A stretch of 51,449 nt of DNA from Salegentibacter tibetensis (GTDB taxonomy: Bacteria > Bacteroidota > Bacteroidia > Flavobacteriales > Flavobacteriaceae). The notes under the pieces are model-generated. The model was given only the letters and a program-made list of their open reading frames with translations, had not been told where the DNA came from and did not search any database. A program made the position numbers and the translations under genes. Numbering within the stretch: position 1 is the stretch's first letter; each line of letters starts with the position of its first letter. The stretch spans positions 1-51,449 of the forward strand of contig NZ_JAIQZA010000030.1 of NCBI RefSeq assembly GCF_020164485.1, in the 5' to 3' direction. This document shows, piece after piece, positions 35,852-51,449 of the stretch.

Positions 35852-36934
35852 ATGAAAAAAAATTACCCGGGGATTAAAAAAAATCAGGCTTTCTATTTTA
35901 TTCCTGATATTAGTGGGTTTTCTCAATTTGTGGAGAATACAGCTATTGAACATAGCATTCATATCATTTCAGAGTTACTGGAGATTTTATTAGACAATAA
36001 TGTGCTGAATATGGAATTGGCAGAGGTGGAAGGCGATGCACTTTTTATGTATTCGGAAAAAGATTTATCATTTTCAGAAGTCGAAAATCAGGTAACTTCC
36101 ATGTTAAATGCTTTTAGGGAGCATCTTTATAAATATGAACATCAAAGAATTTGCAGTTGTGGAGCTTGTTCTACAGCAATTAATCTTCGAATCAAATTTT
36201 TGCTACATAAGGGAAGGTTAGATTTTATTAAAGTGAAAAATATAAAGAAGCCTTATGGACAGGATGTTAATCGTATACATCGCTTGCTTAAAAATGATGT
36301 TCCTCTTGATGAATATCTACTACTTTCAAATCCAACGTTTAATGATTTGAAACTAGAACTGGAAGTATCTGGTTTCAATAAAATGGAAAGTGCATACGAC
36401 ATTCATATTCTTCCTTATTATTATAAAGACCTAAAAACTTATAAAACTCCGGTTAAAAAGAAAGCCAGTCAAAATAGCATTCCGATAGATGAAAAATCCG
36501 ATTTTATTATAGAACGGGATATTAAGCTGCCCATTGAAAAAGCCTTCGAACTTATAAGTAATTTTAAATACAGACAACTTTGGGACAGTTCACTAACTGG
36601 GATTACTTTTGATGAAGCCCAGGTAAACAGGTCTGGGTCAAATCATACCTGCATCATTGGAAGTCGTAAAATGAAGTTTGAAACTGTGGGAATAGATAGT
36701 AAGGCAGACCTTTCTTATGGTGAAAAGACCTCTAATTTACCAATGGCTAAAAATTACAGATTTTATATTCTCTTAGATAAGTTAGATCATAATACGACCA
36801 GAATGAAAGTTCTTAACTATTTGCAATTTAATTGGATGGGGAGATTAATGAGAAAATCTGTTTACAGAAAACTGGAAACTACCTGGAATGCTAAACTGAT
36901 AAAGTTAGAAGAAGTAGGTGAGCATAATTTTTAG
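35852..36934 (+). CDS. DUF2652 cyclase-like domain fused to an SRPBCC domain
   Basis: This 360-residue cytoplasmic protein has two parts. Residues about 10-195 match DUF2652, which resembles class III nucleotide cyclases: FYFIPDISGFSQFV (D19) recalls the FxDIxGFT metal site and EVEGDALFMY (D62) the second Asp-bearing strand. A Cys cluster (C101, C103, C106) follows. Residues about 215-355 form an SRPBCC/polyketide-cyclase-type hydrophobic pocket (FIIERDIKLPIEKAFELISNF). Whether it makes a cyclic nucleotide cannot be read here. It stands alone, with 219 and 194 gene-free bases on either side. Confidence 0.8.
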   Translation: MKKNYPGIKKNQAFYFIPDISGFSQFVENTAIEHSIHIISELLEILLDNNVLNMELAEVEGDALFMYSEKDLSFSEVENQVTSMLNAFREHLYKYEHQRICSCGACSTAINLRIKFLLHKGRLDFIKVKNIKKPYGQDVNRIHRLLKNDVPLDEYLLLSNPTFNDLKLELEVSGFNKMESAYDIHILPYYYKDLKTYKTPVKKKASQNSIPIDEKSDFIIERDIKLPIEKAFELISNFKYRQLWDSSLTGITFDEAQVNRSGSNHTCIIGSRKMKFETVGIDSKADLSYGEKTSNLPMAKNYRFYILLDKLDHNTTRMKVLNYLQFNWMGRLMRKSVYRKLETTWNAKLIKLEEVGEHNF

Positions 36935-37128
36935 AAAATATCTTTAATATCTGTATTAAAAATCGGGGTTACTGTTAAATGACAATTATATTATTTTTCA
37001 GAAGAGATGGTTAATTTTATTAATCCAATTCACAAACTCTTCCTAAATTGATTGTCTAGTAGATCAATTTCAATCGGAAATTCTGCACAGAGTGTTCATT
37101 TTTAGTAAATTAGAATAAACCTTATGTT

Positions 37129-38025
37129 ATGAGCGAGAAGAAATCTGTTGAAGCGGTTATTGAGAGGCATGAAGCTTCCGGGAAATATTTTAATGTAAAC
37201 GGCCTTCAATGCTTTGGCCTTGATCAGGGTAATGGAGAAGCTGTACTTTGTCTACACGGTGTACCCACCTCCTCTTTTTTATACCGGAAAATCGTTCCGG
37301 CACTAGCCGAAAAAGGATATAGGGGAGTGGCTATTGATTTTCCGGGCTTGGGCTTTTCTGACAGACCGGAAGATTTTGATTATTCTTTTCCTTCTTTAGC
37401 CAAATTTTGCGCCGAAGTAGCTAAAAGTTTAGGTTTGGATAAATATCACCTACTAATTCATGATATTGGCGGGCCTGTAGGATTTGCGCTAGCTGCAGAA
37501 AACCGGGATAGGATTTTGTCACTTACTATTCTCAATACTTGGATAGATGTGGTAAACTTTAAAAAACCATGGCCAATGCGACCTTTTGAAAAACCTGTGT
37601 TAGGTGATATAGAACTGGCAACCCTAAAACATCTTACCTGGCAAATCATGTTTAATAAAATGGGGGTGAATGATAGTTCGGAAATTCCTAAGAATGAGAT
37701 TTACGCTTATATAGATATTTTAAAGCGTGGTGACGGAGGGGATGCATTCTTAAAACTGATGAAAAATTTTGATGATTCAGAAGAATTTAGAAGTCTATGC
37801 TATAGGGCAGTACAAAATGTACCTTATCCTGTACAGGCAGTTTGGGGCGCCGATGATCCGTTTCTTACACTTGATCACCATGGGCAGGAAATTAAAAAAG
37901 TAGCGGGACTGTCTGAAATTCATCAACTAAGTTCACGTCACTTTTTACAGGAAGAGAAACCGATGGAAATAGTGGCGAAACTTGAAGAAATTATTCAAAA
38001 ATCCAGGCAAATGCTTCCGAGATAA
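37129..38025 (+). CDS. Alpha/beta hydrolase, haloalkane-dehalogenase-like
   Basis: This 298-residue protein has the dehalogenase/epoxide-hydrolase layout: oxyanion loop HGVPTSSFLYRK (43-54), DFPGLGFSDRP (70-80), nucleophile Asp112 in HDIGG, acid Asp in VWGADDPF and catalytic His in RHFLQEEKP. The residue after the nucleophile is Ile, where classic haloalkane dehalogenases have the halide-binding Trp (HDWG). True dehalogenase activity is therefore uncertain; another ester, epoxide or lactone substrate is possible. No signal peptide. It is convergent with the glycosyltransferase gene, with 17 bases between. Confidence 0.88.
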   Translation: MSEKKSVEAVIERHEASGKYFNVNGLQCFGLDQGNGEAVLCLHGVPTSSFLYRKIVPALAEKGYRGVAIDFPGLGFSDRPEDFDYSFPSLAKFCAEVAKSLGLDKYHLLIHDIGGPVGFALAAENRDRILSLTILNTWIDVVNFKKPWPMRPFEKPVLGDIELATLKHLTWQIMFNKMGVNDSSEIPKNEIYAYIDILKRGDGGDAFLKLMKNFDDSEEFRSLCYRAVQNVPYPVQAVWGADDPFLTLDHHGQEIKKVAGLSEIHQLSSRHFLQEEKPMEIVAKLEEIIQKSRQMLPR

Positions 38026-38042
38026 GAGAGAAATTCAGAAGA

Positions 38043-38738
38043 TTAACCGTGATCGCTATAAAATCGTTTCAAATGGTTTGGATGTATAGATAGGTTGTAG
38101 AGGCACACTAAAAATACATCAAGCGCTAATTGTTTGAAAGTTCCATTTTTTTCAAATCTTCTTCCCGACGTAAGAACGTAATCTTTTACTTTTTTGAATT
38201 TGCCTCTTTTTCTAAGTCGACGTTGAATTTCAATATCTTCCATAAATGAAATTGTTTTAAAGCCGCCAATTGATTTAAATATTTCTTGTTTTACAAAAAT
38301 TGCATGATCGCCATAGGTGAAAAATTCCAGGCTAAAACGGCTACACCAGCTATACAAATTAAGTAAGGGATGTAATTTATCAATTCTTAGCCTAAAGCTA
38401 CCTCCTATATGTTTGGATTTCTCAAGCTGTTCTGTTATTAAGCTATAGGTGTTTTCCGGCAGGAACGTATCAGCGTGCAAAAACAATAAAACTTCTCCTT
38501 CAGCTTCTTTGGCGCCAAAATTCAATTGGCTGGCTCTGCCTTTTTTGGACGTAAAAATCTTTACAATTGAAAAACTCCTGGCAATACCAACCGTATTATC
38601 GCCGCTTCCGCCATCAACAACAATTATTTCAAAATTACCCTGGAGCTTTAGGCAATTTCCAATTGTTTTTTCTAAAAAACTGGCTTCATTCAAACATGGG
38701 ATGATTATACTTATTTTTATGTTTTGAACCTGTACCAT
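38043..38738 (-). CDS. TIGR04283-type glycosyltransferase (GT2 fold, arsenosugar-associated family)
   Basis: This 231-residue enzyme has a GT-A fold: ISIIIPCLNEASFLEKTI at the start, the nucleotide site IIVVDGGSGDNT (D42) and the DxD-like metal site LLFLHADTFLP (D90). GRASQLNFGA and SFMEDIEIQRRLRKRGKF are hallmarks of the family once called rSAM/selenodomain-associated transferase 2, now tied to arsenosugar biosynthesis. It is the last gene of the minus-strand run and overlaps the flavoprotein by 22 bases. Its partner family (TIGR04282) is the first gene of the same run. Confidence 0.88.
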   Translation of the reverse strand: MVQVQNIKISIIIPCLNEASFLEKTIGNCLKLQGNFEIIVVDGGSGDNTVGIARSFSIVKIFTSKKGRASQLNFGAKEAEGEVLLFLHADTFLPENTYSLITEQLEKSKHIGGSFRLRIDKLHPLLNLYSWCSRFSLEFFTYGDHAIFVKQEIFKSIGGFKTISFMEDIEIQRRLRKRGKFKKVKDYVLTSGRRFEKNGTFKQLALDVFLVCLYNLSIHPNHLKRFYSDHG

Positions 38739-40153
38739 TTTTTAATGATTGTTTTCATCCAGGGTTTTAACTGTTCTACGAGACTTTGTCTAAATAGTGA
38801 TTTATGAATGTTAGCTGCGGTAGGATAAGGATAGATTTTGTTCATAAAATCATTCAGTTTAATTCCCGCTGTGTTGGCAAGTATCAATTCTTGTATGATT
38901 TCCCCGGCATTTGGAGCAATCATACTACCCCCTAAAATTTTGGCATTCCCAAGGTTAAAGCGCTTTTTCTCTATAAATACGATTAACTGCCCATACTCGT
39001 AATCATCAGTAATAGCACGATCATCTTCCTTAAAATTGGATTCTAAACGTATGTATTTAATATTCTGCTTTTTTAATTGATTTTCATTAAAACCAAAAGT
39101 CGCTACTTCGGGATCGGTAAAAGTTACCCAGGGAAAATGTTTAAAGTCCAGCTTCTTTTTAAGTGGAGAAATAAAATTATTTATTAAAAGCATATTATGC
39201 ATCTCGGCAGCGTGGGAAAATTTAAGATTATCTGCTGCATCTCCACTTACAAAAACCCTTTTATTGGTAGTTTGGAGTTTTTTGTTAATTATTATTTTTC
39301 CTTTTTCTGTTTTTATTCCCCCTTTTTCAAGTGCGAGGGAATCAAAATTTAAAATGCGTCCCAGACCCATAAAAATAGCATCAACAGGAATGCTTTCTTC
39401 TTCACCAATACTCTTTTTGAGAATAGCATATTTTCCTTCGACTTTCGCTACTTCAGCATTGAAAAAAAATTGAATGCCTTCTTTTTTAAGTCTATTTTTA
39501 AGAATGGTGGAAATTTTGGAATCTTCCTTTTTTAAAATATGTTCTCCACGGTCTATAATGTATACTTTAGAACCTAATCTTGAAAAAGCCTGGCCTAATT
39601 CTAAACTTACTGGGCCAGCACCTATAAAGACAAAATTCTTTGGAATAAAATTGATCTCAAAAATAGAGTCGTTAGTAAATATTGGAATATCATCAGTGCC
39701 AGGAATATTAATTATTCTAGGAGAAGACCCTGTAGCAATAACAATATTTCTTCCTTTGAATATCTTATTATTAAGTTTTACTGAATTTTCCGAATTAAAT
39801 GATGCCTCACCCAAAGCTATATCCAGCCCTTTTTCTTTAAGGTAATCAATGTTTTCGTGCTCCTTTATAACATCTTGTTTTCCTTTTATGTAAGCCTTTA
39901 TTTTTTTAATATCCACTTTTCCGGAAATCTCTAAGCCCAATGCTGTAGACAGTTTTGCCTGATGCAATTGTTTTCCTAAGTGAATTAAGGCTTTACTGGG
40001 AACGCACCCGGTGTTTAAACACTCTCCACCAATACTTTTAGCGTTGCGATCTATAAGCAAAACATCCATTCCCAATTGCTGCATTCCCAATGCAGCGCCC
40101 AGACCACCTGAACCCGCTCCAATTACGATTAAATCATAGGTTTTCTCTTTCAT
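38717..40153 (-). CDS. Pyridine nucleotide-disulfide oxidoreductase (MerA/dihydrolipoamide dehydrogenase-like)
   Basis: This flavoprotein is 478 residues from the ATG at 40153, which puts YDLIVIGAGSGGLG at the very start; an upstream in-frame ATG at 40192 adds 13 residues. The redox-active disulfide is C45-LNTG-C50 in GGECLNTGCVPSKAL. A second Rossmann motif (VFIGAGPVSLELGQA) binds NAD(P)H, and VFVSGDAADN is the second FAD contact. The end reads YPYPTAANIHKSLFRQ in place of the HxHPT dyad of lipoamide dehydrogenase; the MerA C-terminal Cys pair is missing. Substrate unknown. This subgroup is often seen beside TIGR04283 transferases (recollection, not checked). Confidence 0.88.
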   Translation of the reverse strand: MKEKTYDLIVIGAGSGGLGAALGMQQLGMDVLLIDRNAKSIGGECLNTGCVPSKALIHLGKQLHQAKLSTALGLEISGKVDIKKIKAYIKGKQDVIKEHENIDYLKEKGLDIALGEASFNSENSVKLNNKIFKGRNIVIATGSSPRIINIPGTDDIPIFTNDSIFEINFIPKNFVFIGAGPVSLELGQAFSRLGSKVYIIDRGEHILKKEDSKISTILKNRLKKEGIQFFFNAEVAKVEGKYAILKKSIGEEESIPVDAIFMGLGRILNFDSLALEKGGIKTEKGKIIINKKLQTTNKRVFVSGDAADNLKFSHAAEMHNMLLINNFISPLKKKLDFKHFPWVTFTDPEVATFGFNENQLKKQNIKYIRLESNFKEDDRAITDDYEYGQLIVFIEKKRFNLGNAKILGGSMIAPNAGEIIQELILANTAGIKLNDFMNKIYPYPTAANIHKSLFRQSLVEQLKPWMKTIIKKWYRFKT

Positions 40154-40196
40154 AGGTATTGAATTTTTATTAGCGGGAAATTGCTGACGCAAAGTA

Positions 40197-41192
40197 TTAA
40201 TAATCGGCCGTGCTCAATATTTCAAATGATTGGGTTAGCAGATCTTTTCGTTTTTGTAAATTTATGGCTAAAGGTAACTGGGCTAATCCCAGAATTCTTC
40301 TAAATATCTCAATCGCCGTGAATTGCTGACACAATTCTTTATTTAGCAGAGCCTTTTCGGTGTAATATCTAAAGGCTTTACTAACAATTTCTTCAGGCTG
40401 GTTGGCCATTTTTAAGTGCGCGATAGTAACCCCAATTTCAAATTCCGGTTCTCCGAAAAAGCAGAATTCCGGATCAATAATTTTAATTCCGCCTTTTGTT
40501 TTTATCCAACTCCCCGGAAAATAATCACCGTGCAAAAGGCTGTTTCCGTCCTGTAAATAGCGTTCTCCTAATTTCTCAATTTTACCTTTAAGATCATCAT
40601 TGTTTTTATAAGGCGCTGCTATGCTCTGCAGACCTGGCAGTACGGCATCTAAATCCAGACCGTTTTCTTCTAAAAAAGGATATATGAAAATATGTTTGTG
40701 ATTTAATTCCCGCATTTTCCGGTTGGGCAGGTTAATTTCTGAATTTTCACGGGTGAGATTAGTATGTAAATCGGCAGCAAAGCTTATAATCTTAAATAAT
40801 TCATCCTCATTTAAAACCTGTCCGTTTTTATATAAAAAAGTATAGTCGGTAGCGTTACCTAGATCTTCAAGATATAAAACATAGTTCTGGTTATCAATCT
40901 TCAGGAGATTAGGCATCTGTTTTTTTAAACTGCTGTAGCCAGAAACGAGCTCGTAAAATTTAGCTTCTCTTAAAGATCGTGTAATCGGGGCTTCTACTTG
41001 CGGATATTTCTCGACATAATCCCGACTTTGTTTTATTATAAAACTTCTTCTATTGGTTTTTACGCGAAGGGTGAAATTCATATTTCCATCGCCTGGGACT
41101 TCTATTGCAGTTACTTTTTCACCTGTTTCTAACCAGGACCGAGCCTCCAGGTATTTTTCTACTGTTTTTATATTAGCTGTTAAATGGACCAT
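40197..41192 (-). CDS. APH-fold kinase resembling 5-methylthioribose kinase
   Basis: This 331-residue cytoplasmic protein has the aminoglycoside/choline kinase fold: a glycine loop GDGNMNFTLRV (34-44), ATP lysine K54 in FIIKQSRDYVEKYP, catalytic loop HGDYFPGSWI (221-230) and metal site IDPEFCFFGEPEFEIG (from 239). The K-Q-x-x-x-Y-V and IDPEFxFxGxxxFxIG forms are closer to 5-methylthioribose kinase (MtnK) than to aminoglycoside kinases. MtnK phosphorylates the C1 hydroxyl of a 5-substituted ribose. It lies 21 bases after the nucleoside hydrolase gene, which would release such a ribose. No other methionine-salvage gene is present. Substrate inferred only. Confidence 0.82.
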   Translation of the reverse strand: MVHLTANIKTVEKYLEARSWLETGEKVTAIEVPGDGNMNFTLRVKTNRRSFIIKQSRDYVEKYPQVEAPITRSLREAKFYELVSGYSSLKKQMPNLLKIDNQNYVLYLEDLGNATDYTFLYKNGQVLNEDELFKIISFAADLHTNLTRENSEINLPNRKMRELNHKHIFIYPFLEENGLDLDAVLPGLQSIAAPYKNNDDLKGKIEKLGERYLQDGNSLLHGDYFPGSWIKTKGGIKIIDPEFCFFGEPEFEIGVTIAHLKMANQPEEIVSKAFRYYTEKALLNKELCQQFTAIEIFRRILGLAQLPLAINLQKRKDLLTQSFEILSTADY

Positions 41193-41213
41193 ATTTTTTA
41201 AAAATCGAAGCTT

Positions 41214-42353
41214 TTACTGGTTATTAATTAGACTTTTCATCATCTTTTCGTGGTAGTCTTCTGCAACGTCATAACAGTATGTTACTGGAAAACCATTTTC
41301 TGAATTAATTATTAAATATTGCTTGAAATTATTTTCAGGTGTATCCAGTAGCATATCGTTTTCGTGAATCTCTAAATGAGCATTTAGCTCTTCTGAAATT
41401 ATATCTTCAGGTGCTATGAGATAATGACTTGCTAATAGATCAAAAGGGTTAAACCCATTTTCGCCAACTTTTTCCCACTGCTGTAGCCAGGGTTTAGATT
41501 TTTTTGCCAGCCAGCTTGTAGCAGAATCTCCTTTTTTCATCCTTTCTAAATCTTCACCTGTTACCCAGACTTTATTTGAAATTTCAAACGGACAAAGAAC
41601 AACTTTAACTCCGCTTTCAAACAAAATTCTAAATGCAGCGTTATCAAGGTCAAAATTAAGATCTGGCGCATGATGGGCTGTAGGTTTTCCTATTTCAAAA
41701 TAAGAAGTGTCAGTTCTTCTTCCCGCAACCAGGACAACTTCTTTAATTTGCGATTTAAGTTCTGGATAGATTAACAATAAGGTTCCAATGTTGGTCGCTG
41801 GTCCTATTGCCAGGATGGTCAATGATTCCTTCTTTAAAGCTTTCGCCAAAGCTTCAACCGCTTCGTTAGTTTCTACATTCTCCAGGTTAATTTTGTCGAT
41901 TGCTCCTTTATAAACCGGAATTTCGTAAGGAGCAAATTCGCTTACCATTTCCTTGTTTAGGCGGTAGGCATCATCAATTTTAGTATTTCCAAAAACAGCA
42001 CTTATTCCTTTTATGTTTATATTTTCTGCTTTAAAAAGTTGTAAAAGGGCGTAGGCATCATCTACATCGCTATACCCATCACGATGGTATCTTTTCATAC
42101 CCACAGCGAGGTCTGCATCTACCCAAATATTTTTTTTAGAATTTTTTGCATCATTGTTTGTTGGAAAAAAACTTTGAGGGGTTTCTTTGTAATCCAAAGC
42201 AGCGCTTTCAGTCGTCTTCCCAAAATCTTTCGTTGAAATGGTTTCCAATTTGGCAATTTTAGGCGAATCATCGTCTTCTTTTGAATCAGAGCCACACGCA
42301 GCAATTATTCCGATAAGAATTATACTTAGGAATATTTTGGTTTTATTAATCAT
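41214..42353 (-). CDS. Exported nucleoside hydrolase lipoprotein (IUNH family)
   Basis: This 379-residue protein would split a ribonucleoside into base and ribose outside the cytoplasm. A lipoprotein signal ends at Cys20 (IIAAC), followed by a 55-residue low-complexity spacer. The calcium-binding Asp motif starts IWVDADLAVG (D79, D81) and is completed by DVDDAYAL (D96, D98, D99); the stretch between is much longer than in the compact DTDPGxDD form. The C-terminal marks ILAIGPATNIGTLL and LNFDLDNAAFRILFESG are typical. The signal places it on the periplasmic side, next to SusC/SusD. It sits between a hairpin-rich gap and the ribose-kinase-like gene. Confidence 0.9.
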   Translation of the reverse strand: MINKTKIFLSIILIGIIAACGSDSKEDDDSPKIAKLETISTKDFGKTTESAALDYKETPQSFFPTNNDAKNSKKNIWVDADLAVGMKRYHRDGYSDVDDAYALLQLFKAENINIKGISAVFGNTKIDDAYRLNKEMVSEFAPYEIPVYKGAIDKINLENVETNEAVEALAKALKKESLTILAIGPATNIGTLLLIYPELKSQIKEVVLVAGRRTDTSYFEIGKPTAHHAPDLNFDLDNAAFRILFESGVKVVLCPFEISNKVWVTGEDLERMKKGDSATSWLAKKSKPWLQQWEKVGENGFNPFDLLASHYLIAPEDIISEELNAHLEIHENDMLLDTPENNFKQYLIINSENGFPVTYCYDVAEDYHEKMMKSLINNQ

Positions 42354-42398
42354 AGTTTAGCAATATTTATTTTTTTTGGATTTAGTTCGAGAACTATA

Positions 42399-42497
42399 CT
42401 CGATTATCGAGATTTAAATGCTCCGAGGCTTGCCTCGAAAATTAAACAATGGTTCTCAATGAATGCCTCGTGAGCGTGCGCCGAGGTAGTTTACCTC
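42399..42497 (-). repeat. Cluster of CGAGG-type inverted repeats between susD and the nucleoside hydrolase
   Basis: Four complementary pairs occur in 99 bases: CTCGAT/ATCGAG (42399-42411), CGAGGC/GCCTCG (42424-42437), CCTCG/CGAGG (42466-42470 with 42482-42486) and GAGGTA/TACCTC (42483-42497). The last two share bases, so they cannot form together. The 184-base gap has no ORF. It could end the susCD message, protect its 3' end or set the level of the downstream genes. Confidence 0.6.
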
Positions 42498-42537
42498 AAT
42501 TAAAAGTTCGACGCAATTTGTTAGCCTTTTGCAATTG

Positions 42538-43986
42538 TTAATCCATTTCCCACCAGTTTTTTATATTAATATTATCGCCGCCCATTCGATCCACTGCTTC
42601 CTGGTAATTGGTATTATTTACAGCTTGTTCCGATTCGGGGTAGAGGTAACGTACAGGATATTTATCGTCATTAAAGTTATCTGGCCCGGGACTTATTTCC
42701 GGAATTCCGGTACGCCTAATATTAAACCAGGCTTCGTGACCTATCATAAATAAACTTAGCCATTTTTGGGTTAGTATTTTTTCAAGATTATCCTCGCTGT
42801 TTTCGGTTAAAGCCACCGATTCCTGTGAAAAATAATCAGCAGGGATTTGTACCGAATAATAATCGAAATGCGCCTGAATAGCATTTCTATAGTAAGTATC
42901 TGCATTCCCGTTTATAAACCCTCGTTCCACTGCTTCAGCTAAAGCAAATTGTACTTCTGAATACAACATTATTTGAGCGTCAACCCCGTCAGGTATTTCT
43001 CTAAAACGATTAGACATAATGGAAAGATCATTGAGCTCAATATTTCTTTCACTAATTGTTTGGGTACTTAGTCCGTTAGGTAAACCTTTAAATTGAGGGT
43101 TTCCGGCAAGAATACTTTCTGGAGTAGGTTGGTAGAAGACACTGATTCGGGGATCTTCCCAGGTCTTTAAAATATCTTCTACAGTTTTACTCATTTTTAA
43201 GCCCCGATAAATTCCTGTAGAAGCACTAAATAAAGGAAACTGGTTCGGTGCAGCGTCTAAGTAGGGTAGTACCGCATTATCTGCATTAGACTGTATCAAA
43301 CTTCCAGAGTCTGCAAGATCCTGCAATTTGCTAAAATCTGTAATACGCTTGCTAATGCGTAAATGAAAACGAACCTGCAGGGAATTGGCAAAGCGTATCC
43401 ATTTCTCCAAATTATTACCAAACATAATATCTCCCCTTATACTTTCATTTGTATTTTCAAGTTGTGAAGCGGCACGCTCTAAATTAGCTAAAATACCGGT
43501 TTCGGGGTCGGTATAAATACTTTCCTGGGTATCATAAACAGGAGTGAAATTAAGTTCGCCAAATTGGATGGCTTCGGTATAAGGAACATCGCCCCAGATA
43601 TCGGTAAGTTGGGAAAATAGATAACTTCGCATGATTTGAGCTACGCCATCGTAGGCTTCATTGTAACCCGATAAACTTTTCATCGATTCCAGGTCGGCTA
43701 AAAGGCTATATATCAAATTCCAATAATTACTATTACTGCCTAATTCGTAACGATCTATACGTTCAAATTCTACATCGGCATTGAATTGTGCTAAATAGTT
43801 ATTTCGCCGTAAACCTTGATTATATGTATGTTCATTAAGTTCTGAAGCAATTACATTGGTCAGTAAAAATTCAGGACTTACTTCTTGAGGAGCATTAGGA
43901 TTATCATTAATTTCCTCAAAATCATTGTCGCAACCTGCTAAGTGCAGCATAACAATAATGGCAATAATGAATTGTATATTTTTCAT
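42538..43986 (-). CDS. SusD/RagB-family nutrient-binding lipoprotein (SusD-like_2)
   Basis: This 482-residue surface lipoprotein is the lid of the SusC channel. The signal ends at Cys19 (LAGC), followed by DNDFEEINDNPNAPQEVSPEFLLT, the usual start of the SusD-like_2 group. TPR-like helices carry the pattern YWNLIYSLLADLESM, GVAQIMRSYLFSQLTDIWGDVPYTEA and WIRFANSLQVRFHLRIS. The end shows WLSLFMIGHEAWFNIRRTG and GGDNINIKNWW. It follows susC by 10 bases. Ligand is not predictable from sequence; the neighbour enzymes suggest a nucleoside-like compound rather than a polysaccharide, and no glycoside hydrolase is present. Confidence 0.95.
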   Translation of the reverse strand: MKNIQFIIAIIVMLHLAGCDNDFEEINDNPNAPQEVSPEFLLTNVIASELNEHTYNQGLRRNNYLAQFNADVEFERIDRYELGSNSNYWNLIYSLLADLESMKSLSGYNEAYDGVAQIMRSYLFSQLTDIWGDVPYTEAIQFGELNFTPVYDTQESIYTDPETGILANLERAASQLENTNESIRGDIMFGNNLEKWIRFANSLQVRFHLRISKRITDFSKLQDLADSGSLIQSNADNAVLPYLDAAPNQFPLFSASTGIYRGLKMSKTVEDILKTWEDPRISVFYQPTPESILAGNPQFKGLPNGLSTQTISERNIELNDLSIMSNRFREIPDGVDAQIMLYSEVQFALAEAVERGFINGNADTYYRNAIQAHFDYYSVQIPADYFSQESVALTENSEDNLEKILTQKWLSLFMIGHEAWFNIRRTGIPEISPGPDNFNDDKYPVRYLYPESEQAVNNTNYQEAVDRMGGDNINIKNWWEMD

Positions 43987-43996
43987 TCCTGACTTC

Positions 43997-46900
43997 TTAA
44001 AAATTTGTTTTCAGACTAACACCAAAACTTCTTGTTGAGGGATAAGAAAAATCGTCTACGCCATACACAATATTACGTTCCTGGAAAGCATTCAGCTCCG
44101 GATCGAAATGCGGGTTTTCAGTAAACAACAATAAATTACTGCCTATTAACCCCAGCTTTAGATTTTCTACTCCTATATATTTTGCAGTTTTTTTCGAGAA
44201 GGTATAATAGATACTCACCTGCCTTAATTTTATATAAGAAGCATCGTATAAGGCACTTGCTTCGTTCCCACGGTCATAGTAGGCATTATTAAAAGTGCTT
44301 GCAGGCACAGGAGTAGTGTTTTGGGTATATTGAGGGTTTTCGTCGGTTCCAATGTTAACAACACCATCACCTATAATCCCGTTCCCGTCCACAAATTGCG
44401 TATTTGGTCCGCCTCCTTCACGCCCTAATAAGGTTTCTTTTAAAACTCCAGAGGTACTACCTAGAGCTTTAATTCGCGATACAATGGTACCACCCTGGCG
44501 CCAGTCAAAAAGAAAATTTAAATCAAAGTTTTTATAGGAAAAACTATTGCTGAACCCCATAGAGAAATCTGGGTTGTAATTGCCCAGCAGCCGTAAATCG
44601 CCATCTTGTACCGGTAATCCGTTGGTGTCATACAGATCCTGACCATCTACCTGGACAAAGCCCGTACCATACATATCTCCCACACGCCCATTCTCACGAG
44701 CGATATATAAAACGGTGTTAGAGCCACCATTAAAAATATTTGCCGTAGCAGTTACAAACTGGTCTACTCCCTCGGGAAGTTCGGTAACTACACTTCTAAA
44801 AGTGCTAAAGTTCACCGAAGTATTCCAGGTAAGCGCTGAAGTTTTTATTGGAGAAGCACTTAACATTAATTCCAGGCCACGAGTTCTAACTTTTCCTCCA
44901 TTTTCATTAAATCTCCCAAAACCACTGGCATTAGAAATTGGTCTGGAAATAATTTGATCCTTACTTAGATTCTGATAAACAGAAGCTTCAAACTGTATCC
45001 TTCCTTTTAAAAACCAGGCTTCAAGACCACCTTCGTAGGCGTTAAGCCGTTCTGGTTTCAAGTTTATATTTTTAAGAACATTCTCATTAGTTACTCTAAA
45101 ATTTGAACCATAATTACCATTAAATTGAAAGATTTGCCTGCTTTGAAAGGGATCGGTGTCATTACCCACTGAAGCAGCACTCAATCTGAATTTTAAAAAT
45201 GAAATGTCTTCGGGTAAGTTAAAACCATTTGAAGCCACATAACTAAAGCCTGCAGAGTAATAACCAAAAGAATTGTTCTTCTTAGGTAGGGTGCTACTCC
45301 AATCATTGCGATAAGTAAGATCTATATATAGTTCATTTTCGAAACCCAAATTTGCGGTACCATATACACTATTAATACGTTTGTTGAAATTTTCGCTGCT
45401 TCCTTTTAACGGTGCTCTAGAGTTAGCCAATGTATAAATCTCCGGTAAGGCGAGTTGAGAAGCTTCAGCAAAAGCATAGTGAATTTTTTGGTCAAAGCGG
45501 TTTGCGCCGATGGTTAATGTATAATCTAATCTCTTATTAATTTCATTTTTATAGGTTACTAAAAAGTCGGTATTCATTTCGGTAAACCTAATGTTATCTT
45601 CCCGATACGAACCAAACGGATTTGCATTTGTGCTTACCGAACGTCTAAATTCACGATCATCGTTATACATATCCATACCAGTACGCACTTTAAAACTCAA
45701 ATTTTCTGACAAATCATAGGTTACAGAAACGTTTCCTAAAACCCGGTTTTTCTCGAAACTATTGGTGTTTTCAAAAAGTGTTAAATATGGATTAGTAAGC
45801 CATAAATAATTTATGTCAAAATGTTGCCTTCCTGTTTGTCCCGCCTGCCAGTAATCCTTAAGGGCGGCAATATTGGTTTGTCGCCCTGTCCAGTTAAAAC
45901 CGTATAATACGTTCTCATAACCATACCCTAAATTAGGACGGTTCCCACTACGGGTATTAATATAGTTCACAAAAGTAGTTACCCTTAGTTTTTCGCTTAA
46001 ATTTTGATCTAAACTCACCGCAATACCATCCCTTTTTAAATCGGTGTTGGGAAGTATTCCTTCATTACGCAAGTTGCTATACGAAAGTCTAGCACTACCA
46101 CTTTCTCCACTATTGTTTATGGAGATATTGTTTTGGTAGGTGATACCGGTTTTAAAAAAATCGCGCACATTGTCTGGTCTGGAGATCCAGGGAGTAGGTG
46201 TGATTTCTGTCAAACTTCCGTCAGGTAAAGTACGTGCAATGATATCGCCACCACGCACCGGGTTTCCATTTATATCTACAGAAGGGCTATCAAATTGTGG
46301 AATCATAAAACCTGCATCAAGCTGCGGACCATAGCTGCTAATGCCACCATCATTAACTCCACCACCAACACCATTTTGAAAAGCATATTCCCCATTGGAG
46401 CCTAAACCATATTTATTTTGATATTCGGGAAGTGTAAGTAGGGTTTCTACGGTAAAATTACTGTTGATACTGACTCCAAAGCCTTTTTCTCTATCACCTC
46501 TTTTTGTGCTGATAAGAACCACGCCATTAGCTGCCCGTGCTCCATAAAGTGCAGCCGAACCAGCACCTTTTAAAATAGATATTGAAGCAATATCATCGGG
46601 GCTAATCTCTGAGCCACCATTACCAAAATCTACCTCCTGCAGTGCTCCATTATTTACTAAATCACTCGTTATCTGTTCGTTGCTTATTGGCACACCATCT
46701 ACTACAAAAAGTGGCTGGTTACTTCCACTAAGAGAATTTTCACCCCTAATAACAATGCGGGAAGAAGATCCTACCCCACTAGAGCCATTTGTAATTTGAA
46801 CTCCCGGTACCTGACCTGCTAAACTATTTATCAGGTTAGTTTGCGGAACATTAATTAATTGTTCTGCATTAACCTTGGATACCGCTGAAACTAAGGCTTG

Positions 46901-47242
46901 TTTTTCTTTTTTAATTCCCAAGGCGGTTACTACCACTTCATCCAGAGATTCAGATGAGCGTTGAACTATAATTTCTTCCGGGAAAACCCCACTAGTAATC
47001 TTTATTTCAGTAGACTCAAAACCTATAGAAGATATTCTGAGAGTAAAGTTATTTGAATTTGTCTCAAGACTAAATTCCCCATTTTTATCGGTAGTAGTAT
47101 AGTTCTCAGACCCTAGTTCCTGCACAGTAGCAAAAGCAACAGGTTGTTTTTCATTATCTATTACAGTAGAAGTATAATTTATTGTTTGGCATAGAGCCAT
47201 ACCTGCAAATAGCTGGAATGCAGCTATTATTATTATTTTCAT
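43997..47242 (-). CDS. SusC/RagA-family TonB-dependent outer-membrane transporter
   Basis: This 1081-residue protein is the energy-coupled channel of the SusCD pair. A signal peptide of about 18 residues is followed by a carboxypeptidase-regulatory-like domain (about 22-100), the SusC linker SLDEVVVTALGIKKEKQALV (TonB box region), a plug (about 115-225; NLINSLAGQVPGVQI, LFVVDGVPISN, ISILKGAGSAALYGARAANGVVLISTK) and a C-terminal 22-strand barrel ending in RSFGVSLKTNF. Length is normal. It lies 60 bases after the TIGR04282-type gene and 10 before susD. No anti-sigma/ECF sigma or hybrid two-component regulator is adjacent. Confidence 0.97.
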   Translation of the reverse strand: MKIIIIAAFQLFAGMALCQTINYTSTVIDNEKQPVAFATVQELGSENYTTTDKNGEFSLETNSNNFTLRISSIGFESTEIKITSGVFPEEIIVQRSSESLDEVVVTALGIKKEKQALVSAVSKVNAEQLINVPQTNLINSLAGQVPGVQITNGSSGVGSSSRIVIRGENSLSGSNQPLFVVDGVPISNEQITSDLVNNGALQEVDFGNGGSEISPDDIASISILKGAGSAALYGARAANGVVLISTKRGDREKGFGVSINSNFTVETLLTLPEYQNKYGLGSNGEYAFQNGVGGGVNDGGISSYGPQLDAGFMIPQFDSPSVDINGNPVRGGDIIARTLPDGSLTEITPTPWISRPDNVRDFFKTGITYQNNISINNSGESGSARLSYSNLRNEGILPNTDLKRDGIAVSLDQNLSEKLRVTTFVNYINTRSGNRPNLGYGYENVLYGFNWTGRQTNIAALKDYWQAGQTGRQHFDINYLWLTNPYLTLFENTNSFEKNRVLGNVSVTYDLSENLSFKVRTGMDMYNDDREFRRSVSTNANPFGSYREDNIRFTEMNTDFLVTYKNEINKRLDYTLTIGANRFDQKIHYAFAEASQLALPEIYTLANSRAPLKGSSENFNKRINSVYGTANLGFENELYIDLTYRNDWSSTLPKKNNSFGYYSAGFSYVASNGFNLPEDISFLKFRLSAASVGNDTDPFQSRQIFQFNGNYGSNFRVTNENVLKNINLKPERLNAYEGGLEAWFLKGRIQFEASVYQNLSKDQIISRPISNASGFGRFNENGGKVRTRGLELMLSASPIKTSALTWNTSVNFSTFRSVVTELPEGVDQFVTATANIFNGGSNTVLYIARENGRVGDMYGTGFVQVDGQDLYDTNGLPVQDGDLRLLGNYNPDFSMGFSNSFSYKNFDLNFLFDWRQGGTIVSRIKALGSTSGVLKETLLGREGGGPNTQFVDGNGIIGDGVVNIGTDENPQYTQNTTPVPASTFNNAYYDRGNEASALYDASYIKLRQVSIYYTFSKKTAKYIGVENLKLGLIGSNLLLFTENPHFDPELNAFQERNIVYGVDDFSYPSTRSFGVSLKTNF

Positions 47243-47302
47243 GATAATTTTTTAATATAAACAAAAGGTGTAATTTTCTTGAAATCTTGAGAAAATTATA
47301 GT

Positions 47303-48022
47303 TTAAGATTTAATAAGGAGAGAATAAATTTGGGGCGGTGCCCTTAAATTAAGGGGGATATATCTTAATTTTGATAAAAAAATATTGTCTAAGGTGGGGA
47401 AAACCTTGTTTAGTAAAGATTTCAGTAGGCGTATAAACTTACCTAAATAGGTGAACTTGTATTCTTTGGCAAAGACACAAACGTCCTGGCCGGAATCTAG
47501 GTCATTAAGTGTTTCTAATTTATGGAATAAAACACTTCCTAAAGCCGCCTGTTCTATTATGTTGCTATAAAGGCTTGAAGACTGCCAGGGTAAATTCAAA
47601 AATTGTTCCTGGTCAAAAATAGCACGATTTAGACCAAGTAAATAAATACCACCATCCCAAGCAGGGCCAACCACTAATTTTTTTGACTGTAATTGGGTAA
47701 TAGCATCTTGTAAAATTTCTATAGTTAGTTCCGGGCAATCATTCCCTATAGATAGTACATTTTGGTAACCTAAATCAAAAAGTTCCTGAAAAGCATTGGC
47801 AAAACGTGAGGCAAAATTGGAACCTTGTTGTTTGGTTTCGTCTACCCAAAATACTTCAACTCCACTTTTATCAGCAAGATGTTTGGTTTGTAAAATAAGT
47901 TGGCGAAAAAACGCAGAATTTTCTTTATGGTGCCTTTTACCAAAAATGTTCTTTCTATGGATTTCTTTTTCCGCAGAAAGTGAAAAAACAATTAAGGCTG
48001 TTTTATTTATGTTAGACCTCAT
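47303..48022 (-). CDS. TIGR04282-type DUF2064 transferase (arsenosugar-associated family)
   Basis: This 239-residue protein has the nucleotide-diphospho-sugar transferase-like fold of DUF2064: start TALIVFSLSAEKEI, the core SIGNDCPELTIEIL and the hallmark GPAWDGGIYLLGLN, with LPWQSSSLYSNII after it. This family was named rSAM/selenodomain-associated transferase 1 and is tied to arsenosugar biosynthesis. The last 50 residues (from about LGKFIRLLKSLL) are outside the usual domain. It is the first gene of the minus-strand run; its partner family TIGR04283 is the last, 8.6 kb away. Confidence 0.85.
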   Translation of the reverse strand: MRSNINKTALIVFSLSAEKEIHRKNIFGKRHHKENSAFFRQLILQTKHLADKSGVEVFWVDETKQQGSNFASRFANAFQELFDLGYQNVLSIGNDCPELTIEILQDAITQLQSKKLVVGPAWDGGIYLLGLNRAIFDQEQFLNLPWQSSSLYSNIIEQAALGSVLFHKLETLNDLDSGQDVCVFAKEYKFTYLGKFIRLLKSLLNKVFPTLDNIFLSKLRYIPLNLRAPPQIYSLLIKS

Positions 48023-48449
48023 TCAACAAATGTGCTAATAAATAACGTTACTGAATAATTTCTTTTATATTGTTTTACCACCTTTCAGAAAGATCATCCA
48101 TTTTTCTCAGAAAATGATTAACTAATTAAACTCGAGTTTTTATATTATTTTGATTTCACGAAATAGGAAAATTGAAAGTCAATTCAGATGTTTTACATTT
48201 TTCATACAATTTTTGTAAGAATGCTTTTGAGGTTCCTTCATGCATGGCAAAACTCGTTTTCAAAAAAACGATTCAATGGTTAAAAATAGTCTTTTTCCTT
48301 TTCTCTTGTAGCAGAGGGGTCTATTTTCTTTGATCGGACATTACTCTTCCCAAGAATATAAAAACACCGGAAAACGTCATTTTTATGACATTTAATTTTC
48401 ATTTCATTATTTAGATTTGGAAAAAATTTTATTTAAAAACATAACCATT
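48023..48449. other. Gene-free divergent control region
   Basis: These 427 bases separate the minus-strand run (TIGR04282-type gene) from the outer-membrane protein gene. I see an AT-rich stretch, a 14-base perfect palindrome-like element (GTCAT-TTTT-ATGAC, 48376-48389), a TAGATTTG element (48412-48419) and a possible 29-codon ORF (48244-48333) whose translation looks like a short lipoprotein signal. I see no RNA gene. The minus-strand promoter could not be placed with confidence. Confidence 0.6.
48376..48419 (+). promoter_or_regulatory. Candidate promoter with overlapping palindrome for the outer-membrane protein gene
   Basis: TAGATTTG (48412-48419) matches the Bacteroidota -7 element exactly and lies 30 bases before the ATG at 48450. 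No clean TTG is at -33. The palindrome GTCAT-TTTT-ATGAC (48376-48389) sits just upstream of where the -33 box would be, a position suited to an activator or repressor. Confidence 0.45.
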
Positions 48450-49343
48450 ATGAAAAATTATTTTTTTCTTTTGATCGTTTTCGCCTTTTTTAGCAGTACA
48501 TACGCGCAGGGCCCTGTAGATGGTTTCTTTAGCCCAAAAAATGAACTTTCCTTAACAGCCAGTTATACCAGTTCAAATTATGATGAATTTTACGTTGGTG
48601 AAGAAAAAATGTCGCCGGTCCCGGCCCATAACGAGGTAAAACAGAATATTTACAGTTTGTATGGTAAATACGGTTTGACTAATGATTTAACACTAATAAT
48701 GAATTTGCCTTATGTTAGTGCCCAGGGAGAAGGACAACCGGATCCTTTTAATAACACCACCGAACAAAAGGATTTTCAGGACTTGGGCTTATTCGCCAAA
48801 TACAGGCCTGCCAGTTTTGATTTGGAAAACAGTAATTTGGACATTGTTACCGCTTTGGGCTTTAATTTCCCTCTTGGGTATGAGCCAAATGGTATTCTAT
48901 CTATAGGTTCGGGGGCTTTTTCCACAGACCTTCATGCAGGGCTTCATTATCAACATAGTACAGGGTTTTTTACAAGTGCAATTTCCGGGTATAGTTTTAG
49001 GGGCGAGGCCGATGATAACCTGGATATCAATAACGGGAACAATTTTGACGTGCCCAATGCGTTTTTATTATTAGGTAAGATAGGGTACGCGTCGTCTAAA
49101 TTTTATATAGAAGGCTGGGCAGATTATCAATCTTCAGTAGACGGAATTTCAATAAATGACCCTAATTTTGCTGGTCAATTTCCAGAAACTGAGGTCGATT
49201 TCACCCGTTTAGGACTTACCGCTTATGTTCCCTTCGGAGAAGCATTTGGTGCTAGTGCCGGTTTTAGCACGGTTGTAGACGGAAAGAATATCGCCATTTC
49301 CAATAATTTTAATCTTGGTCTTACTTATAATGTTAATTTGTAA
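48450..49343 (+). CDS. Outer-membrane beta-barrel transporter-like protein (MetA phenol-degradation-like fold)
   Basis: This 297-residue protein starts at the ATG at 48450, giving a signal peptide (MKNYFFLLIVFAFFSSTYAQ); an upstream in-frame TTG at 48417 lies inside the promoter element. The mature part is a series of amphipathic strands with aromatic girdles (ELSLTASYTSSNYDEFYVG, NIYSLYGKYGLTNDLTLIMNLPYV, FQDLGLFAKYRP, ending FNLGLTYNVNL). The pattern fits the MetA/'transporter' barrel family. Function unknown; passive passage of small molecules is a guess. It is 96 bases ahead of the DUF547 gene. Confidence 0.8.
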   Translation: MKNYFFLLIVFAFFSSTYAQGPVDGFFSPKNELSLTASYTSSNYDEFYVGEEKMSPVPAHNEVKQNIYSLYGKYGLTNDLTLIMNLPYVSAQGEGQPDPFNNTTEQKDFQDLGLFAKYRPASFDLENSNLDIVTALGFNFPLGYEPNGILSIGSGAFSTDLHAGLHYQHSTGFFTSAISGYSFRGEADDNLDINNGNNFDVPNAFLLLGKIGYASSKFYIEGWADYQSSVDGISINDPNFAGQFPETEVDFTRLGLTAYVPFGEAFGASAGFSTVVDGKNIAISNNFNLGLTYNVNL

Positions 49344-49439
49344 ATAATAGATAGGAGAATCTTCTTGTTTTTGGAGAAACTCATTTTGAAAAATAGATGG
49401 GATTCTGTCATAATCTAACATACTTTTATCATTTAAAAA

Positions 49440-50246
49440 ATGACAACAAAAATGAAATATTTCGTTTTTTCTTTTCTTGGTTTAGTATTGATATTTGCTG
49501 GCTTCTTAAAATTTGGAAATTCCGGTTTGCTTGGAATGGCCGGCCTGAACGATGGCGGTTTACACTGGGATGAAAAAAGCAGTGAACTTGAAACTACGTT
49601 AGATCCTATTTTAGATCATACAAGCTGGGATAATTTATTAAAAAAATATGTAGCGGATGATGGAGATGTTAATTACAAAGGTTTTGTGAAAGAGAAAGAA
49701 GAATTAGAAAAATATCTTTCTTATTTGTCTGAAAATCGACCTCAGGAATCCTGGCCCCTTGAGGAGCAACTCGCCTATTATATTAATTTATATAATGCAG
49801 GCACTGTTTTACTAATTGTTGAAAATTATCCTGTTACAAGCATTAAAGATATTAAAAAGCCCTGGCGGCAGGATTTTATTCAAGTTGGGGATAAAAAGGT
49901 TTCCCTGGGAACTATAGAGCATAGTATTTTAAGAAAAATGGAGGAGCCACGAATTCATTTTGCGATAAATTGTGCTTCATTCTCTTGTCCAAGGTTACTT
50001 AATGAAGCTTATACAGCTGCTGAATTAGAAAAACAACTTCACAAAGTAACGGATGACTTTATTAATTCTGATAAGAACAACATCAGTAAAGAACAGGTAG
50101 AGTTGTCAAAAATTTTTGACTGGTATAAAAAAGATTTTCCAAATGGGGACTTGATTGCTTTTATTAATAATTATAGCGATGTTCAAATTGCTGAGAATAT
50201 AGATATTAATTATATGGACTATGATTGGCGTTTAAATGAGCAATAA
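49440..50246 (+). CDS. DUF547 protein, membrane-anchored
   Basis: This 268-residue protein has one N-terminal hydrophobic anchor (FVFSFLGLVLIFAGFLKF) or uncleaved signal. The DUF547 domain covers about 60-240: YVADDGDVNYKGFVKEKEEL, EEQLAYYINLYNAGTVLLI, VSLGTIEHSILRK (E160, H161) and RIHFAINCASFSCPRL (H173, C178, C183). The conserved His and Cys suggest a papain-like or other hydrolase/transferase centre, but no reaction has been proven for the family. The gene is frequent near TIGR04282/TIGR04283 transferases in marine bacteria (from memory). Confidence 0.88.
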   Translation: MTTKMKYFVFSFLGLVLIFAGFLKFGNSGLLGMAGLNDGGLHWDEKSSELETTLDPILDHTSWDNLLKKYVADDGDVNYKGFVKEKEELEKYLSYLSENRPQESWPLEEQLAYYINLYNAGTVLLIVENYPVTSIKDIKKPWRQDFIQVGDKKVSLGTIEHSILRKMEEPRIHFAINCASFSCPRLLNEAYTAAELEKQLHKVTDDFINSDKNNISKEQVELSKIFDWYKKDFPNGDLIAFINNYSDVQIAENIDINYMDYDWRLNEQ

Positions 50247-50460
50247 TCAAGTTATAAGGAATGTTATTCCTGGGTATTTAAATGCCGATTAGTTTTCTCC
50301 TCCTAAATTTTATCTCTATTTGGTACACTTAGATAATCAGAAAAAGTAGATCCTGACTAGGGGGTCTGAAAAGTTTGGAGTATTGAAATCACAGAAACTA
50401 TACCTTCAAATTTATCACAGCCATTTTAGGCGTTTGCCCAGTAAAACTTTAAAAACTATT

Positions 50461-51449
50461 TTGAATATACAAAATAAGAAACACATCGTTATTATAGGCA
50501 ACGGGATTTCAGGAATTACCTGCGCACGGCATATCAGGAAAAATGCCAATGCAAAAATTACCGTGATTTCTGCGGAAAGCGATTATTTCTTTTCCCGAAC
50601 TGCCCTGATGTATGTGTATATGGGCCACATGAAATGGGAACATCTTAAACCCTATGAAGACTGGTTTTGGGAGAAAAACCGTATCGAACTTAAAAAAGCC
50701 TGGGTTTCAAACATAGATTTTGAAGAAAAAACACTTCATTTTTCTTCGAAAGAAACTATGAATTATGATAAACTGGTTTTAGCAACGGGTTCTGTTTATA
50801 ATAAATTCGGTTGGGAAGGTCAGGATCTAAAAGGTGTGCAGGGATTGGTTTCCAAACAGGATCTGGAATTGCTGGAAGAAAATACCCAAAACTGTAAAAA
50901 AGCGGTGATTATTGGCGGCGGACTAATTGGTGTGGAACTCGCCGAAATGCTCAATACCCGAAATATTGATGTCACTTTCCTTATCCGGGAAGAAGCTTTT
51001 TGGCATAATGTTTTGCCGCTAAAGGATGCTAAACTAATTTCTCAACATGTGCGATCTCATGGGGTCACTGTGCACCATGAAACTGAACTCGTTAAAATAA
51101 TTGGAGATGAAAACGGAAGGGTAAAATCGGTAATCACCAATTCTGGAAAAGAAATTGAATGCCAACTCGTGGGGCTTTGCGCCGGGGTAAGGCCTAATAT
51201 AGATTTGCTTAAAAACTCTGCCCTGGAAACCGACAAAGGAATTTTGGTAAATGAATTTTTACAAACCAACATTAAAGATGTTTATGCCATTGGCGATTGT
51301 ACGCAGCTAAAGCAGCCTCCAGCACATCGAAAACCTATTGAAGCCGTTTGGTATGCCGGGCGAATGATGGGCGAAACCCTAGCGCAAACCTTAACCGGAA
51401 ATGAGAGGAAGTACAAACCGGGAAACTGGTTTAATTCGGCTAAATTCTT
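50461..51449 (+). CDS. FAD/NAD(P)-dependent oxidoreductase, 3' end cut by window
   Basis: About 329 residues are visible with no stop before the window edge. I infer a TTG start at 50461, because the FAD Rossmann motif HIVIIGNGISGITCARHI begins at once and no ATG precedes it; the frame stays open upstream to at least about 50350, so the start is uncertain. A second Rossmann motif (AVIIGGGLIGVELAEML) binds NAD(P)H, and DVYAIGDCTQ is the second FAD contact. The architecture is that of nitrite-reductase/rubredoxin-reductase-type flavoproteins, without a redox CxxC. It lies 214 bases after the DUF547 gene on the same strand. Confidence 0.85.
   Translation, partial: MNIQNKKHIVIIGNGISGITCARHIRKNANAKITVISAESDYFFSRTALMYVYMGHMKWEHLKPYEDWFWEKNRIELKKAWVSNIDFEEKTLHFSSKETMNYDKLVLATGSVYNKFGWEGQDLKGVQGLVSKQDLELLEENTQNCKKAVIIGGGLIGVELAEMLNTRNIDVTFLIREEAFWHNVLPLKDAKLISQHVRSHGVTVHHETELVKIIGDENGRVKSVITNSGKEIECQLVGLCAGVRPNIDLLKNSALETDKGILVNEFLQTNIKDVYAIGDCTQLKQPPAHRKPIEAVWYAGRMMGETLAQTLTGNERKYKPGNWFNSAKF

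Follow-up and report, generated by a model that had tools for sequence, protein, structure and literature searches.

Which substrate is served by a gene run that joins an outer-membrane uptake pair, a nucleoside-hydrolase-like lipoprotein, and a sugar kinase to two transferase-type genes? Such a run lies on the minus strand of contig C112 of Salegentibacter tibetensis (NZ_JAIQZA010000030.1; genome of 4.2 Mb in 187 contigs), which was analyzed over its entire 51,449 nt and is called the window here. From 48022 to 38043, the run encodes GT82w (our working label for a diverged TIGR04282/DUF2064 protein type), SusC, SusD, NH (a lipoprotein with the nucleoside hydrolase fold), KIN (a protein resembling methylthioribose (MTR) kinase), a disulfide flavoprotein, and a TIGR04283 protein, with intergenic gaps of 60, 10, 184, 21, 4, and −22 bases. 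A preliminary description of the window had named these genes and their neighbors, all of which exist where it placed them, and had read them as a possible modified-ribonucleoside or arsenosugar locus. That interpretation stands in part: the tie to arsenosugar metabolism is borne out by the distribution of TIGR04282, by gene neighborhoods, and by a site swap. The run is probably a salvage entry to the arsenosugar pathway, taking in an exogenous 5-substituted ribofuranoside that is most likely an arsenosugar. This reading is based on gene content, motifs, N-terminal signals, synteny, and phylogenetic partition, from which we infer arsenic in the substrate, the direction of transport, and each reaction; it is the genetic links that point to an arsenosugar as the substrate.

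Gene content of the run

Profile scores are given in bits with their curated cut-offs, and L, G, and C numbers denote fetched loci, sampled genomes, and contigs, respectively. The TIGR04283 family glycosyltransferase, the last gene (38043..38738), scored 227 (cut-off 182) over the full profile (1–221 of 221). In contrast, GT82w, the first gene (47303..48022), scored 98 with TIGR04282 (cut-off 134) in a match limited to residues 60–180, and 77.8 with PF09837, its best match among solved structures being 3cgx; of the two transferase assignments made earlier, only that of TIGR04283 therefore holds at the curated level. In alignment, the N-terminal GKxKTRL loop of the full-length paralogs is absent from the GT82w subfamily. 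Between these two genes lie a SusC-type TonB-dependent outer-membrane transporter (43997..47242; TIGR04056, 607.8, cut-off 368), a SusD-like surface lipoprotein (42538..43986; PF12771, 312), NH, an exported lipoprotein and proposed ribofuranosidase (41214..42353; PF01156, 117.6, cut-off 34.2), KIN, a putative sugar 1-kinase (40197..41192; TIGR01767, 105, below the cut-off of 275), and a MerA/lipoamide-dehydrogenase-like flavoprotein disulfide reductase (38717..40192; NF004991, 381, cut-off 620; PF07992, 200.6), which holds the same place in L036 and L037. A scripted scan with a Bacteroidota-type promoter pattern gave no match in front of the run; the pattern occurs 14 times in the 51 kb, so this has little weight either way.

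Neither arsS (TIGR04167) nor AsSugarArsM (NF038099) was found in the window, as the preliminary description had noted, and the contig ends at 51449. Both are present on contig C135 (L004) of the same genome, in an arsenosugar operon with arsS (440.8, cut-off 300), AsSugarArsM (562, cut-off 400; the sole match in the genome), TIGR04282 (211), TIGR04283 (236.8), a CMD-family gene (PF02627), DUF547, an FAD oxidoreductase, and a phosphorylase that is purine-nucleoside-phosphorylase-like by its likeness to a gene of L053, itself over the NF006054 cut-off. The window run does not duplicate this operon; it is an import-type module with SusC/SusD, an exported NH-fold enzyme, and a kinase. The window shares with the known arsenosugar biosynthesis operon (arsM-arsS-TIGR04282-phosphorylase-TIGR04283) relatives of TIGR04282 and TIGR04283, paralogs of DUF547 and the FAD oxidoreductase, and the proposed 1-phosphate, whereas it lacks arsM, arsS, and the phosphorylase, and modules like it also occur in arsS-free genomes. 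The DUF547 and TIGR04283 paralogs of C112 and C135 are 50% and 41% identical, respectively (blastp). The run also resembles polysaccharide utilization loci in joining SusC/SusD to a surface or periplasmic hydrolase; unlike in those loci, the hydrolase is of nucleosidase type and is followed by a kinase and a pathway transferase, and the substrate is likely to be a small molecule.

The hydrolase and the kinase

The AlphaFold model of NH (mean pLDDT 76; residues 1–70 below 50) matches nucleoside hydrolases (RihA, YeiK, IAG-NH; PF01156), with which NH shares the fold and the Ca-site Asp residues. Unlike these enzymes, NH appears to be exported, with a lipoprotein-type start (lipobox IAAC), has a long insert in the DxD..DD loop between the Ca-site residues, and carries Phe where group I enzymes have His. 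At this leaving-group position, before the last Ca-site Asp, Phe was found in 13 of 13 rows of the NH subfamily, from 12 genomes, as well as in three related sequences, and Trp in all ten rows of the subfamily labeled NH2. Group I enzymes are reported to have His and group II enzymes Trp as the leaving-group residue, and some members to have neither (PMC8910321). Phe in place of His was considered as a sign of a leaving group other than a nucleobase and dropped, because aromatic residues there are also described in purine nucleosidases (PMC8910321). Since a nucleoside hydrolase is reported to cleave 4-nitrophenyl riboside, an O-riboside, well (PMC8910321), cleavage of an arsenosugar would be chemically possible.

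Forty-six kinase loci were read in stretches of approximately 20 kb, some on short contigs: 22 from the family sample described below (window included), 12 from named genomes, and 12 from the phylum sample, three of whose 15 loci were dropped (G000 and G001 because they had been counted before, and G271 because it is the genome of L041, from which L109 also comes). In 39 of them, the kinase gene has an NH, NH2, or ADP-ribosylglycohydrolase-type hydrolase gene no more than two genes away. According to a simple script for hydropathy and lipoboxes and to visual inspection, with no signal-peptide program, these hydrolases have hydrophobic or lipoprotein-type starts except in L039, L041, L048, L110, and L111, which are exactly the loci with a four-gene ABC transporter; the calls are doubtful for L043 (fragment only) and L045 (a twin-Arg-like start, by eye). 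A hydrolase predicted outside the cytoplasm without an importer, or inside it with an ABC importer, is the pattern expected of an external substrate.

The best named matches of KIN are from Gramella sp. AN32 (79%) and a Christiangramia metagenome-assembled genome (MAG; 78%), and its profile matched, among solved structures, MTR kinase 2olc and 2pyw (labeled uncharacterized), with 4-hydroxytryptamine kinases far weaker. The 24 aligned homologs, of 33 then gathered, all have the GxGNxN, HGD, DPE, and RR motifs, and the DPE fits the DxE that we take to be an MTR kinase motif. The G-loop, HGD, and RR motifs are described for MTR kinase, and in the plant enzyme the HGD Asp touches O1 and O2 of the sugar and the first Arg O2 and O3 (PMC2194712). 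With its GxGNxN, HGD, DPE, and twin-Arg motifs, KIN resembles MtnK (TIGR01767; 2olc). Unlike MtnK, it falls far short of the TIGR01767 cut-off and is linked to TIGR04282 genes; because of that score, KIN is, on sequence grounds, related to MTR kinase but not that equivalog.

The closeness of KIN to MTR kinase also suits a simple disposal of MTR or 5-deoxyribose through methionine salvage or the drd pathway, particularly since 5-deoxyribose kinases are reported to be MTR-kinase paralogs (PMC6079011). In drdK-drdI-drdA, as proposed for KIN, such a paralog phosphorylates a 5-modified ribose at C1, and some drd clusters hold sugar transporter genes. However, the MTR-1-phosphate isomerase MtnA (TIGR00512) was found in none of 41 kinase genomes at E 1e-10, in a search whose control was positive in 9 of 14 known genomes. 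This absence closes both fates known for such a 1-phosphate, and, unlike in the drd system, the product appears bound for a glycosyl-transfer route. Disposal is thus largely refuted and very improbable, although a non-homologous isomerase would revive it.

Distribution of the kinase, TIGR04282, and arsS

The link to arsenosugars is carried mainly by a partition across genomes. In a family sample of 199 genomes from 198 genera, in which the kinase was called with a single-protein query (E 1e-10), it was present in 22 genomes, arsS over the cut-off in 148, and TIGR04282 over the cut-off in 158. These 158 genomes consist, without exception, of the 148 with arsS and 10 with the kinase and no arsS. 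Among the arsS-free genomes, TIGR04282 was present in 10 of 10 with the kinase vs 0 of 41 without it (Fisher p = 8e-11; this and all other Fisher values ignore kinship), and all 22 kinase genomes of the family carry it. The expectation that the kinase would co-occur with arsS over many genomes was not borne out, arsS being present in 12 of 22 kinase genomes vs 136 of 177 kinase-free genomes (p = 0.04, in the negative direction), which rules out the kinase as a genome-level partner of arsS. In this family, the kinase tracks TIGR04282, not arsS.

These distributions bear on the role that the preliminary description had given to the hydrolase and kinase, a branch of de novo synthesis in which the two, and not the phosphorylase, would act on dimethylarsinoyl-adenosine made by the cell itself. 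The chemistry fits, since both routes yield the same 1-phosphate, and the kinase lies near a full-length TIGR04282 gene and a phosphorylase gene in 13 of the 22 family loci. However, such a branch is made improbable by the apparent export of the hydrolase wherever an ABC importer is missing, by ten family genomes with the kinase but without arsS, and by the phosphorylase that already exists in this genome and in those 13 clusters. The pair still looks like an alternative way to a sugar 1-phosphate, although most likely not from the cell's own arsenonucleoside. Uptake and salvage are preferred because the hydrolase looks cytoplasmic only where an ABC transporter accompanies it and the run contains SusC/SusD, and because the de novo operon already has its phosphorylase and arsS shows no positive association with the kinase.

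The partition recurred in part in other genomes. Six of the 12 named kinase genomes are arsS-free and all six carry TIGR04282, while one arsS genome among the 12 (MAG G206) lacks it; over all kinase genomes gathered, TIGR04282 was present in 24 of the 25 arsS-free ones. In the phylum sample (345 genomes; TIGR04282 called at E 1e-35, 202 of 203 such matches being over the cut-off), the kinase was found in 15 genomes, and TIGR04282 in 10 of 11 arsS-free kinase genomes vs 61 of 199 with neither gene (p = 1e-4). Among the phylum-sample rows of the same family or class, ten had TIGR04282 without arsS, of which eight had the kinase and two (G253 and G330) did not. Because 61 genomes with neither gene have TIGR04282 and three arsS genomes lack it, the phylum sample replicates the family partition only in part: the link holds but is not exclusive.

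These 61 genomes favor a version of the same logic without arsenic, in which ordinary or 5-deoxy ribonucleosides would give a ribose-type 1-phosphate that TIGR04282 and TIGR04283 enzymes pass to a ribosylated lipid or cap, arsenic being one variant. The neighboring hydrolases, which are of nucleosidase type, are in keeping with it, and NH2 has the Trp-Asp pair reported for enzymes specific to purines (PMC8910321). We nevertheless regard it as unlikely: the family partition with arsS is exact, AsSugarArsM lies within kinase clusters only where the genome has arsS, and it is a C5-blocked sugar that would need an MTR-type C1 kinase. AsSugarArsM was sought in 34 kinase genomes and in 16 control genomes without arsS and the kinase, and was found in 12 of the 18 arsS-positive kinase genomes, in none of the 16 arsS-free kinase genomes, and in none of the controls.

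On the kinase tree (46 rows), which need not equal the species tree, the arsS label requires 15 changes, and well-supported branches force 11 of these; shuffled labels require 15.5 on average. As the changes are no fewer than with shuffled labels, the partition was not one event on this tree, and gains or losses of arsS relative to the kinase must have been numerous, with TIGR04282 kept throughout.

Site swap and gene neighborhoods

A swap of arsS and the module at one chromosomal site was found in the arsS-free genomes of Cellulophaga baltica (L040), C. omnivescoria (L047), and G129 (L048 and L123), which hold the module where eight relatives hold arsS. The site is flanked by a TetR gene and a conserved upstream block on one side, and by patatin-like and reductase-like (FNR) genes and a downstream block on the other. 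Next to the same TetR side come arsS and CMD in L068, L070, L072 (whose downstream flank is missing from the fetched stretch), L073, L075, L077, L078, and L086; GT82w stands beside arsS/CMD in five of these (L070, L073, L075, L078, and L086), and seven of the eight genomes (all but that of L086) carry the kinase elsewhere. In L074, arsS is at the swap site without TetR. Twenty arsS loci were fetched (11 from kinase genomes and nine from others), in seven of which GT82w lies near arsS. Relatives of the window GT82w, SusC, and SusD form a same-strand run with arsS in two of the 20 (L071 and L085), the only two with window-like SusC/SusD. The run of L071, which adjoins the downstream flank only, also includes a symporter-like protein and a phosphoesterase. 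In the genome under study, a third module, on C138 (L129, 5361–13082), consists of GT82w, SusC, and SusD and, after them, genes for a symporter-like protein and a metallophosphoesterase; L085 and L071 have a set of this composition in a single run with arsS. The symporter-like protein of C138 has no Pfam match and was likened by eye to an L085 protein matching the sodium:solute symporter family.

Around the kinase, the co-occurrence of neighbors and transferases predicted earlier was seen in part of the loci. SusC and SusD share the stretch with the kinase, as in the window, in 12 of 46 loci, 10 of which also have GT82w (in G129, in the neighboring stretch L123), the two without it being L036 and L037. 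A full-length TIGR04282 gene lies within approximately 10 kb in the same stretch in 14 of 46 loci, where less than one such neighbor would be expected by chance (our estimate, from approximately one full-length copy per 4-Mb genome and 20-kb stretches). All 14 have the phosphorylase, and most have TIGR04283, DUF547, and rhodanese. The usual order is KIN, an ADP-ribosylglycohydrolase-like lipoprotein, rhodanese (in L053, NF045521, 200, cut-off 145), TIGR04282, phosphorylase, AsSugarArsM (seven loci), DUF547, and TIGR04283, and L038 combines this set with the SusC/SusD set. The genes for type III pantothenate kinase and for TPR, LptC-like, hemolysin-like, and PpiD-like proteins (named by eye) that flank many L050-type loci were set aside as housekeeping genes and not counted as part of the system.

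Some neighbors were peculiar to single loci. In Membranihabitans maritimus, a radical SAM protein with weak NirJ/AhbD-like matches is encoded directly after the kinase (L039, 11002–11982). In a 1.8-Mb genome (L066, 10531–13716), the NH2-kinase pair is followed by a GH4-type-like enzyme and a sodium:solute symporter-like protein, assigned by eye, in an uptake-like setting.

These neighborhoods also allow an ordinary nucleoside-scavenging locus to be weighed, one that would stand beside the transferase genes by accident. SusC/SusD with a nucleoside hydrolase would be a plausible nucleoside utilization set, the run itself names no arsenic, and 21 of the 46 kinase loci have neither SusC/SusD nor a full-length TIGR04282 gene in the stretch, some of these being short contigs. 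Such an accident has little probability in view of the exact TIGR04282 partition in the family, the arsS site swap, and the GT82w-SusC-SusD run with arsS in two genomes.

Several observations weigh against an arsenosugar salvage module. No window gene is specific to arsenic, the window GT82w has lost the loop that would be expected to bind the nucleotide, and an inner-membrane transporter for the free sugar was not recognized in the run. A recognized hydrolase is lacking in seven of the 46 kinase loci (L058, L046, L118, L112, L116, L120, and L121), and 6 of the 18 arsS-positive kinase genomes lack AsSugarArsM. In addition to the 21 loci without either partner, the 61 phylum genomes that keep TIGR04282 with neither gene, and the three arsS genomes without it, the kinase genome G449 has neither arsS nor TIGR04282 at the cut used. 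Finally, the TIGR04282 cluster was read in 10 arsS-free kinase genomes, and eight of these keep a phosphorylase with no obvious job (L050, L051, L057, L061, L038, L124, L125, and L126).

The two clusters that do not keep it, L127 and L128 (arsS-free kinase genomes G183 and G158), have TIGR04282, DUF547, and TIGR04283 with no adjacent phosphorylase, an arrangement that a kinase-only route would allow.

Neighboring genes in the window

Divergent to the run are genes for an outer-membrane barrel protein (48417..49343, plus strand, as are the next two; PF13557), a DUF547 protein (49440..50246; PF04784, 93), and an FAD-dependent oxidoreductase truncated by the contig end (50383..51449), which has a paralog with 87% amino acid identity at the end of C135. 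Both contigs stop inside these paralogous genes, whose last 127 bases are identical (window 51323–51449; L004 16219–16345), and the assembly therefore probably broke at a repeat. The two genes are 85% identical in DNA over 972 bases, and their ends suggest recent homogenization. A block of a DUF2652-type gene, an alpha/beta hydrolase gene, and TIGR04283 is present twice in the genome, at 35852–38738 of the window and on C106 (L130, 7149–10104).

Proposed pathway and its significance

In the salvage route that we favor, a 5-substituted beta-ribofuranoside from outside the cell (most likely an algal arsenosugar) would cross the outer membrane by way of SusC/SusD, and the exported lipoprotein with the nucleoside hydrolase fold would release the free sugar. 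KIN would convert this sugar to 5-deoxy-5-dimethylarsinoyl-ribose 1-phosphate by phosphorylation at C1 and so arrive at the product expected of the phosphorylase in de novo synthesis. The full-length TIGR04282 enzyme, here encoded on C135, would then activate the 1-phosphate, probably as a nucleotide sugar given its CofC-like family, and the TIGR04283 enzyme would pass the activated sugar to an acceptor.

Arsenic in seaweed is reported to be mainly in arsenosugars (PMC5478658), and a 2025 review describes the uptake mechanisms of small organoarsenic species, including arsenosugars, as largely unknown (PMC12608789). Among the matches listed in our literature search, titles and abstract starts described no genes for arsenosugar uptake or salvage, and a search for arsenosugar with ArsS, radical SAM, or glycosyltransferase returned no match. 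With the module, a substrate can for the first time be proposed for a kinase family and for a nucleoside hydrolase subfamily that the searched family libraries match only through distant relatives. The module is probably a salvage variant of arsenosugar metabolism, and family relatives without arsS keep TIGR04282 when they hold the kinase. Because the module is defined and arsS-free strains keep the later pathway genes, the questions of why arsenosugars are made and how cells take them up and reuse them become testable with a few enzymes and cultivable bacteria such as Cellulophaga. More tentatively, and with somewhat less than even confidence, marine Bacteroidota may scavenge algal arsenosugars with a dedicated set of SusC/SusD, hydrolase, and C1 kinase and turn them into glycoconjugates of their own; lineages that lack arsS and the arsenosugar arsM would depend on this route, and the arsenic sugar would be a wanted compound and not only a product of detoxification.

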